Shown one piece after another: positions 1 through 63,365 of a DNA stretch of 64,000 nucleotides. Both the position numbers and the translations under genes were made by a program. The first letter of the stretch is position 1. Each line of letters starts with the position of its first letter. The notes beneath the pieces are model-generated. The model saw only the letters and a list, made by a program, of their open reading frames with translations. It was not told the origin of the DNA and did no database searches. This DNA is from Thiomicrorhabdus sp. 6S3-12 (GTDB lineage Bacteria > Pseudomonadota > Gammaproteobacteria > Thiomicrospirales > Thiomicrospiraceae): contig NZ_JAGETW010000004.1 in assembly GCF_017571475.1 (NCBI RefSeq), positions 124,001-188,000 of the forward strand, given 5' to 3'.

Positions 1-7
1 ACATAAG

Positions 8-177
8 GGCGTTAAACGGGAAGATTGGTGCGAAATTCGTTTTCAATTCCAACGCTGCCCCCGCAACGGTAATAGAGAAAACTTTGATGGGTTTGTCCCA
101 ACCACTGGCTAAATCGGTGCAAGCTGTTTAGCCGGGAAGGTCAAAGAAACCGCTCTTAAGCCCGGATACCGGCCTGA
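8..177 (+). promoter_or_regulatory. Cobalamin (B12) riboswitch upstream of btuB-cobQ
   Basis: The stretch carries the conserved blocks of the adenosylcobalamin riboswitch in order: AAACGGGAAG near 15-24 followed by GGTG at 27-30, GCTGCCCCCGCAACGGTAA at 54-72, GCCGGGAAGG at 131-140, and the B12 box AAGCCCGGATACCGGCC at 159-175. It lies about 180 bases upstream of a TonB-dependent receptor of BtuB type and points the same way. Known family role: binding of coenzyme B12 to the leader turns down the downstream transport or biosynthesis genes. The expression platform between 178 and 359 is not resolved. A small hairpin (CTTGTC/GACAAG near 186-202) and a possible GGTTTAT/ATAAACC pairing (240-246 with 312-318) are candidates. 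The 5' strand of P1 may begin just before the window. Confidence 0.93.
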
Positions 178-359
178 AATCCGACCTTGTCCGTACGACA
201 AGCTCTCAACCGATTGCGGTGGGCAATGCGGAAGAAATAGGTTTATTGGTTCTCGCTCGCTGACCGCGACGGGACAATACGATTTATTCTTTATTCGGAC
301 TATCAGCCGGATAAACCGTTTTGCCTTCGTTCATAATTTATGAAATGAAGGAAATCCAA

Positions 360-61995: not shown

Positions 61996-63129
61996 TTAAG
62001 CGTTCTTAGCGGTTTTGATATTGTCAATAAACTGGTCGAACAGAGGTGCGACATCATGAGGTCCCGGACTCGCTTCAGGGTGTCCCTGAAAACTGAATGC
62101 CAATTTATCGGTACGGGAAATCCCCTGCAGGGTCCCGTCGAACAGTGATTTATGCGTCGCTTTCAGATTGGCCGGCAAAGTGTTTTCATCAACTGCAAAG
62201 CCGTGGTTCTGAGCCGTGATCATTACTTTGTTTGAATCCATATCCTGCACCGGATGGTTTCCACCGTGGTGACCGAACTTCATTTTTACGGTTTGCGCGC
62301 CGGATGCCAAAGCCAGAAGTTGATGCCCCAGACAGATACCGAATACCGGAATATCGGTTTTCAGAATTTCTTGAATCGCTTCGATCGCGTAGTCGCAAGG
62401 CTCAGGATCACCCGGACCGTTGGACAGGAAGACACCGTCCGGGTTCATAGCCAATACTTCTGCTGCAGTCGTTTTTGCCGGAACCACAGTCAGCTTGCAG
62501 CCTCGATCAGCAAGCATACGCAGGATATTGCGTTTTACACCGTAGTCGAAAGCAACGACATGGAATTCCTGGCTGGATGAACAATCTTTGTGGCCTGCGC
62601 CAAGTTGCCAGGTTCCTTCGGTCCAACTGTAAGTTTCCGGAGTCGTCACTTCTTTTGCCAGATCCAGACCTTTTAGGCCACTGAACGCTTTTGCCTTGGC
62701 AATTGCCGCATCGGCATCAATCTCATCACCGGCAACAATCACACCGGACTGAGCACCTTTATCACGAAGCAGACGTGTCAGTTTACGTGTATCGATATCG
62801 GCAATGGCCACAACACCCTGCTCTTGCAGATAGTCCGGCAGGCTATTTTGAGCACGGAAATTACTCATGCGTGGAGGACAGTCTTTAACAATCAAACCTT
62901 GAGCCATAATACGCGATGACTCTTCATCTTCTTCATTCACACCGACATTACCGATATGCGGGTAGGTCAAAGTGACAATCTGTTTAAAGTAAGAAGGGTC
63001 TGTCAGAATTTCCTGATAACCGGTCAATGAAGTGTTGAAAACAACCTCACCGACAGTTTCGCCCTCTGCACCCAACGAAGTTCCCCAAAAAAGGGTACCG
63101 TCTTCCAACGCGAGTAAAGCCTGTTTCAT
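61996..63129 (-). CDS. carA: Carbamoyl-phosphate synthase small subunit
   Basis: Glutamine amidotransferase subunit that feeds ammonia to CarB. The N terminus is [20 protein letters not shown]; the class I amidotransferase triad shows Cys in [16 protein letters not shown] near residue 262 and His/Glu in [14 protein letters not shown] chose ATG 63129 (377 aa) because it has GGA seven bases upstream and fits the family start; the frame stays open to 63237, across the attenuator-like terminator, so the upstream part is not coding for CarA. The leader is described in separate entries. Confidence 0.96.
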
Positions 63130-63205
63130 TAATATGTCCATCCGAGAAATAACAAAGTGAGCAACATTTAAGCAGCCTCTATACAGGGTAGCGCCCAGCA
63201 CATAT

Positions 63206-63246
63206 AAAAAAACGGAGCCAGTCCCACAGGAACTCACTCCGTTTTT
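63206..63246 (-). terminator. Intrinsic terminator in the carA leader (candidate attenuator)
   Basis: On the minus strand AAAAACGGAG (63246-63237) pairs with CTCCGTTTTT (63217-63208) and is followed by more T. It lies 77 bases before the carA start and overlaps the stop codon of a short leader reading frame. It could instead be the terminator of the upstream NlpC/P60 gene, 218 bases away. Confidence 0.7.
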
Positions 63247-63289
63247 AGAATGCTGAATGACTAAATGCCATCTCCGCTAAATACCCCAT
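63245..63289 (-). CDS. Possible carA leader peptide, 14 codons
   Basis: A short frame reads [14 protein letters not shown] and ends TAA at the first bases of the terminator stem. AAGG lies eight bases before its ATG. It lies downstream of a good sigma-70-type promoter. There are no arginine codons, so arginine-dependent stalling is unlikely; a pyrBI-like scheme in which a closely following ribosome covers the terminator stem is the better guess. Translation has not been shown. Confidence 0.4.
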
Positions 63290-63322
63290 ATAAATCGCCT
63301 TAAGGCTTAAATTTTAGTCATT
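63256..63322 (-). repeat. Inverted repeat in the carA leader
   Basis: AATGACTAAA (63256-63265) and TTTAGTCATT (63313-63322) are a perfect 10-bp inverted repeat, with a GCCTTAAGGC palindrome inside (63298-63307). In RNA the stem would include leader codons 8-12, so a translating ribosome would open it. Confidence 0.6.
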
Positions 63323-63336
63323 TAAAAGTTAGGCGG

Positions 63337-63365
63337 ATTTTACTCGATTTGCGGTTTCATGTCTA
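63337..63365 (-). promoter_or_regulatory. Predicted sigma-70 promoter for carA
   Basis: On the minus strand TAGACA (63365-63360, five of six to TTGACA) and TAAAAT (63342-63337) are separated by 17 bases. A GC-rich CCGCC follows the -10 box, as in promoters under stringent control. The start of RNA would be near 63330, giving a leader of about 200 bases before carA. Confidence 0.55.

Follow-up and report, generated by a model that had tools for sequence, protein, structure and literature searches.

The carA gene of Thiomicrorhabdus sp. 6S3-12, whose genome measures 2.55 Mb, is preceded by a leader that probably acts as a transcription attenuator operated by a ribosome reading a minimal frame. 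The leader lies in a window of 64,000 nucleotides (positions 124,001 to 188,000 of contig NZ_JAGETW010000004.1), where a promoter, a frame of a few codons with its own ribosome-binding site and an intrinsic terminator whose 5′ arm begins inside the TAA of that frame precede carA (Table 1). From the sequences compared below, we infer that the frame is translated, that its translation prevents termination and that the speed of RNA polymerase, as set by pyrimidine nucleotides, is the sensed variable. A translation-coupled attenuator had been proposed in the original prediction for this DNA; its core holds family-wide, in that a frame with a ribosome-binding site ends mostly at the foot of the terminator, but the start codon that it named is poorly conserved.

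Table 1. Features of the carA leader, in window coordinates.
Feature	Coordinates	Strand	Details
Promoter TAGACA-17-TAAAAT	63337..63365	(-)	-35 63365-63360, -10 63342-63337; pattern scan and family conservation
10-bp inverted repeat	63313-63322 / 63256-63265	(-)	exact match of arms
Longer in-frame form, 14 codons	63245..63289	(-)	ATG 63289-63287, TAA 63247-63245; AAGG 8 nt before ATG
GGGGTA, Shine-Dalgarno-like block	63282..63287	(-)	GGGG ends 12 nt before ATG 63271
Conserved leader frame, 8 codons (MAFSHSAF, stop)	63245..63271	(-)	ATG 63271-63269 to TAA 63247-63245
Local hairpin P2 (ATGRY...RYCAT)	63257..63271	(-)	start codon inside; 96% of cells paired, 28 distinct genus rows
Intrinsic terminator	63206..63246	(-)	arms 63246-63229 / 63225-63208, one G.G mismatch, T-run 63212-63206
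carA	61996..63129	(-)	start codon ATG 63129-63127; carB and greA next, both named by reading translations

The family set comprised 62 genomes of 7 genera, including that of the window, and carA was present in 62/62; in two drafts (G015:C94 and G023:C31) the gene is split by in-frame stops, possibly through assembly errors. Within the genus, full-length carA matches share 82-98% identity. The upstream DNA of 60 genomes could be used, G024 and G051 being left out, and pooled counts refer to 59 leaders from 6 genera, because the layout of the sixtieth (L157, genus g4) differs and it was analysed separately. The genus Thiomicrorhabdus (g1) accounts for 31 leaders, the window (L002) among them, while g3 includes Hydrogenovibrio sp. 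SC-1, g5 a metagenome-assembled genome (MAG) of Sulfurivirga caldicuralii and g6 Thiomicrospira sp. ALE5. The 59 leaders are relatives in one family, and the counts given below are not counts of independent events. A search for genomes at the level of the order returned nothing beyond the family itself. Elsewhere in the window, a cobalamin riboswitch (1-191, plus strand, 80 bits), truncated by the window edge, precedes a TonB-receptor-like gene (345-2300) and genes read as functioning in cobalamin synthesis or uptake.

The promoter-like TAGACA-17-TAAAAT first noted in the window is present and kept family-wide. A promoter pattern scan alone performs at chance level (2 sites in 1.1 kb vs. 1.1 ± 1.1 expected), and our own scoring picked the best site in each leader; the evidence is the constancy of sequence and place, not mere presence. 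Among the best-scoring sites of the 59 leaders, the -35 element reads T(A/G)GAC(A/T) in 57, the exceptions being TGGACG in L142 and CTGAAA in L158, the spacing to the -10 is 17 nt (18 in g2) and the -10 follows TANNAT; L157 is alike. From this promoter, the carA transcript would start near 63331-63329. The A or G found in this -35 where TTGACA has T recurs in 57/59 family leaders and in 14/22 leaders of other families. A palindrome, ACCAGGCCTGGT (AACAGGCCTGTT in L020), possibly an operator or a repeat, stands upstream of the promoter, 145-212 nt before the terminator arm, in 7/59 leaders (L008, L012, L016, L020, L025, L167, and L168) and farther away in L013, L030, and L150; the window is without it.

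Downstream of the promoter, the 5′ part of the leader is less constant, the length from the -10 to the terminator arm varying from 60 to 102 nt in the 59 leaders. The 10-bp inverted repeat reported from the window is indeed exact there, but it is kept in just 5/31 genus leaders (the window itself, L003, L004, L022, and L026). In one genome of the genus (L019, from G022), the conserved ACGGRGTATTTAGC block is lost and the leader start is GTG.

The reading of an intrinsic terminator with its 5′ arm at the TAA of the frame is confirmed by folding: the hairpin reaches -24.2 kcal/mol against -7.75 ± 2.28 in shuffled sequences (z -7.2), and the leader stretch 63331-63150 as a whole folds with a z of -5.6. 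A simple scan for terminator patterns did not pick up this hairpin and listed 0 sites vs. 1.1 expected. The arm motif ACGG(A/T)G occurs in the terminator of 60/60 family leaders, and chance is excluded mainly because promoter and terminator are both conserved in these 60/60. From 29 genus leaders, RNAalifold predicts the terminator and the local hairpin P2. Among the 28 distinct rows in the genus alignment, 98.9% of cells are paired, and of the terminator pairs 9/17 are invariant and 2/17 have changed on both sides. In complete leaders, the arm pairs within the terminator with a probability of 1.00 in 59/59.

Between these two elements, the family keeps a start codon and a stop position. A start codon matching ATG 63271 is found in 31/31 genus leaders (30 ATG, 1 GTG), and throughout the family (59/59 leaders; 54 ATG, 5 GTG) a start codon precedes the C of the arm by 25-45 nt, the distance being 25-35 nt in 55/59. 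The frame from the chosen start is open to at least -15 relative to the arm in 59/59, vs. 12/59 and 40/59 for the other two frames, and it meets a stop within -15 to +10 of the arm in 53/59, vs. 0/59 and 22/59; the six remaining frames stop beyond +10, at +16 to +64. An ATG at -34 to -25 whose frame stays open at least as far as -15 occurs in 53/59 leaders, vs. 9.2 expected from dinucleotide shuffles (g1 30/31, g3 10/11, g5 3/3, g6 9/9, g7 1/1, g2 0/4), g2 scoring none because it has a GTG farther upstream, at -40 to -45. The separately analysed L157 shows no ATG, GTG, or TTG frame within the 60-nt stretch but does show one in a wider stretch, with 21 codons, a start at -68 preceded by AAAGGG and a stop at -2, which brings the stops within -15 to +10 of the arm to 54/60 for the whole family. 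In this g4 locus (L111/L157), the terminator lies some 200 nt away from carA.

Ribosome-binding sites accompany these starts. The predicted duplex with the anti-Shine-Dalgarno sequence is worth -6.0 kcal/mol at ATG 63271, -4.7 at ATG 63289 and -5.5 at the start of carA; leader starts of the genus have a median of -6.1 kcal/mol, compared with a median of -2.4 and a best tenth of -5.0 for 300 ATGs drawn at random from the window. In most genus leaders, the GGRG block and the start are 11-12 nt apart, a longer spacing than usual and a point against the attenuator.

The frame named by the original prediction was a longer one, of 14 codons from ATG 63289. It exists in the sequence, with AAGG 8 nt before its ATG, but this ATG (18 nt upstream of the conserved start and in frame with it) is kept in 5/31 genus leaders and 5/59 family leaders, namely the window, L003, L004, L017, and L022. 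The comparison of related leaders, which that prediction had itself put forward as the test that could refute it, thus goes against the 14-codon frame, whereas the attenuator idea survives because the nested frame starting at 63271 is kept in 31/31 genus leaders. The same attenuator could nevertheless have ATG 63289 as its functional start, the inner ATG being merely Met-7 of a 14-codon peptide: ATG 63289 has its own AAGG, with the duplex of -4.7 kcal/mol, it is retained in the sister genome L003 and three others, and the two ATGs share a frame and a stop. Given that its counterpart is missing in 26/31 genus leaders and that the inner ATG has the stronger Shine-Dalgarno pairing, this is unlikely, and initiation at 63271 is the form of the attenuator adopted here.

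In contrast to start, ribosome-binding site and stop position, which are kept, the peptides are unconserved both within and between genera. In 53/59 leaders, the frame has 5-13 codons, and from the conserved start the genus frames have 5-12; peptides of five residues such as MTKVI, MIQFI, and MANVI occur in the genus, as do peptides of eight, and the three g5 leaders encode unlike peptides of seven residues (MTSPAAY, MHNKAYS, and MNHCDAH) with stops at -1 or -2. One-base changes in loop length toggle between the 5- and 8-codon forms while the stop stays near the arm; in L022, the stop moves to +8. No codon-specific signal was seen in the leader peptides of the 59 leaders. This bears on an arginine-sensing leader peptide of the trp/his type, in which Arg codons would be the sensor: carA feeds arginine synthesis too and Arg is codon 2 in 5/9 g6 peptides, but the window frame has no Arg codon and 43/59 peptides have none either. 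The argument that the missing Arg codon speaks against arginine sensing, made earlier from the window, holds in the family, where the 16/59 peptides with Arg share no position for it across genera, and arginine sensing by the peptide is highly improbable. A frame with a Shine-Dalgarno sequence that mostly ends at the foot of a terminator, together with a variable peptide, makes a translation-coupled attenuator the best reading.

A structured RNA that binds a ligand or a protein, i.e., a riboswitch or a PyrR-like target, could also control the terminator, the frame being incidental. A riboswitch was suspected early, as leader RNAs of the genus are strongly conserved, with a mean column identity of 74%, and the 14-codon frame is broken in most relatives; the suspicion was lowered as leaders of other genera proved to keep a frame and to have lost much of the 5′ part. 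The genome of the window does hold a gene read as pyrR, in a pyrR-pyrB-pyrC operon, and the 5′ arm in the window may pair upstream (0.78). However, Rfam gave no match to the leader at the gathering score or at E <= 1, and none at the gathering score in 14 related loci; few compensatory changes are seen upstream of the terminator; in g2 and g5, the 60-73 nt between -10 and arm leave little room for an aptamer and the frame is still there; and frame and stop position survive insertions and deletions. Control by such an RNA is therefore improbable.

Two folding elements nevertheless bear on how the ribosome-operated attenuator would work. The first is P2, in which the start codon has a median unpaired probability of 0.02 in g1 and of 0.53 in the window; burial of the start codon in g1 should slow initiation and counts against the attenuator. 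As a proven helix, P2 was rejected, just one pair change on both sides being found, in one sequence (L030), and inspection by eye did not reveal it in the g5 leaders. The second is pairing of the 5′ arm with upstream sequence before the 3′ arm is made, for which the probability, with a start site assumed for each genus, is 0.78 in the window, and the medians are 0.40 in g1, 0.19 in g6, and 0.74 in g5. As this pairing varies by genus, no consistent antiterminator is seen, though in the window the leader might form one.

A leader model (R1) was run across the 62 family genomes, and its matches at E < 1e-5 all lie directly upstream of carA, as judged by comparing coordinates by eye; in the genome of the window, the next matches away from carA have E values of 0.02 and 0.15, and 6/62 genomes lack a match at E <= 1. 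In the same genome, no sister attenuators were found at pyrB and pyrE, which speaks against the attenuator as proposed. The gene ahead of pyrE is phosphatase-like and that ahead of pyrB is the pyrR-like gene, and no leader separates either pair; the pyrB locus is L175 (G000:C13:196937-200377), where the operon is read as pyrR-pyrB-pyrC.

Beyond the family, one genome per family of the class was sampled, of which 108/124 gave a carA match, 2 of them from the family itself, and upstream DNA was taken for the best 80 of the 106 other-family matches; since these are the best-scoring ones, the sample leans to near relatives. A terminator-like hairpin lies within 320 nt of carA in 26/80 other families, and 22/80 have, by a loose filter, a purine-rich arm resembling CGGGAG or GCGAG, with a T(A/G)GAC promoter in front in 14/22 and 13-79 nt from -10 to hairpin. 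Judged by these patterns, a putative promoter-terminator core before carA is widespread, being found in about a quarter of the 80 sampled families. A leader frame shared by the whole class was rejected, a start codon being found in 2/22 vs. 4.5 expected, and in 5/22 vs. 9.7 with a wider window. As start codons show no enrichment outside the family, the mini-frame seems to be particular to this family. A set of 50 named carA regions, mostly from gamma- and betaproteobacteria (L056-L110 less L058, L063, L071, L103, and L108), was also compared; 27 have a terminator-like hairpin in 300 nt and 10/27 an ATG 24-33 nt before it; nothing is drawn from these counts because many of the regions are pairs of close relatives.

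Terminators of this kind without a frame invite a further explanation, namely that a leaky terminator sets a fixed level of carA and that regulation takes place at the promoter, e.g., through ArgR. Similar terminators do stand before carA in other families with no frame, but a fixed leak leaves unexplained why the terminator is accompanied in 60/60 family leaders by a frame that has a Shine-Dalgarno sequence and in most cases stops at the arm, and we give it little credence next to an attenuator that the ribosome operates.

In the enteric pyrBI operon, an intrinsic terminator in the leader is blocked by a ribosome on a leader frame whose peptide sequence is unimportant, and RNA polymerase pauses in a UTP-sensitive manner. 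At rph-pyrE in E. coli, a complete gene serves as the frame of the attenuator, and its stop codon lies a few nucleotides before the terminator. The carA leader resembles the latter in having a stop just before the terminator and differs from it in having a separate tiny frame; with pyrBI it has in common the leader terminator, its blocking by a ribosome (as proposed here), the unimportant peptide and the pathway. The pyrBI terminator is inside a leader gene of 135 bp, according to a citation in PMC4824070, whereas 53/59 of the frames described here have 5-13 codons, with their stops mostly at the foot of the arm. The original prediction gave the enteric pyrBI and pyrE leaders as precedent; the Pseudomonas carA leader is a closer one than pyrBI.

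For P. aeruginosa carA, a leader peptide was reported, with pyrimidine control possibly by attenuation (Kwon et al., 1994, as cited in PMC4997734). According to the passages of PMC4997734 that deal with carA, a carAB-greA transcript exists in Pseudomonas, and in P. syringae carA has one start site and a 3′ end at the leader terminator; expression rises when the leader stem-loop is disrupted or deleted, uracil lowers the full fusion, and arginine plus uracil gave no change by qRT-PCR. The same passages state that the authors found no leader start codon; this and the qRT-PCR result speak against a low-pyrimidine signal. The likeness to Pseudomonas thus lies, as far as these passages go, in the gene, the gene order carA-carB-greA and the leader terminator; P. 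syringae differs in lacking the start codon, whereas the Thiomicrorhabdus frame has 5-12 codons of which only the positions are kept, and P. aeruginosa is likened by its description there. A premature terminator before carA was predicted in P. syringae pv. phaseolicola (Naville and Gautheret, 2010, as cited in PMC4997734); in the main text of that study (PMC2965389), the word carA does not occur. The Polynucleobacter carA motif (SRC-12-1), a riboswitch candidate of betaproteobacteria described in PMC8632094 as an extended imperfect hairpin beside the ribosome-binding site of the gene, is also an RNA just upstream of carA and differs in that this description mentions no leader frame. The matches listed in open-licence literature, which cover it in part, comprise the Pseudomonas work and general surveys, and none of them describes such a leader in Thiomicrorhabdus or its relatives. 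The leader would work like the pyrBI and pyrE attenuators and like the carA leader described for P. aeruginosa, the new part being a frame cut to a few codons.

How the attenuator would operate can be outlined from these elements. RNA polymerase would initiate near 63330 and by default stop at the hairpin 63246-63208. A polymerase moving slowly across the ~60 nt from the start codon at 63271 to the end of the U-tract would give a ribosome time to initiate at 63271, to translate the 8 codons and to halt at TAA 63247-63245, where it would cover the foot of the 5′ arm; the covered arm could not fold into the terminator, and carAB-greA would be transcribed. The identity of the peptide would be irrelevant, only the places where the ribosome starts and stops being of account. 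The slowing agent is presumed to be low UTP or CTP because of the gene concerned, the absent codon signal and the behaviour of P. syringae.

The placement of the frame agrees with measurements in E. coli. In the sections of PMC4824070 concerned (Li et al., 2015), termination falls from ~90% to <10% when a stop codon lies 5 bp upstream of the terminator, only ~10% of terminator strength is lost when the AUG lies 30 bp upstream, and translation initiation is cited as taking 1-2 s. The carA leader joins a start ~30 nt before the arm to a stop at its foot, a placement that by sequence would let a ribosome cover the terminator in 53/59 leaders and L157; at normal speed the terminator should win, and when transcription is slowed the ribosome should be able to block it. 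A bolder proposal, which we advance tentatively and with some doubt, is that the leader is a race sensor in which the distance between ribosome-binding site and terminator is tuned, so that the terminator would win at normal polymerase speed and only when transcription is slowed over the ~60 nt could a ribosome initiate, read a frame that may have no more than 5 codons and prevent termination. The peptide would rank among the shortest known from attenuators, its letters being free and its two ends selected, and the frame would have been added at the level of the family to a promoter-terminator core that is older and precedes carA in many families of the class.

Within the family, the 60 leaders, with frames of 5 to 30 codons and start distances of 25 to 68 nt, are natural variants with which polymerase speed could be tested against initiation. 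Their comparative anatomy suggests that an attenuator may depend solely on the places where a ribosome starts and stops, with frames reduced to as few as five codons.
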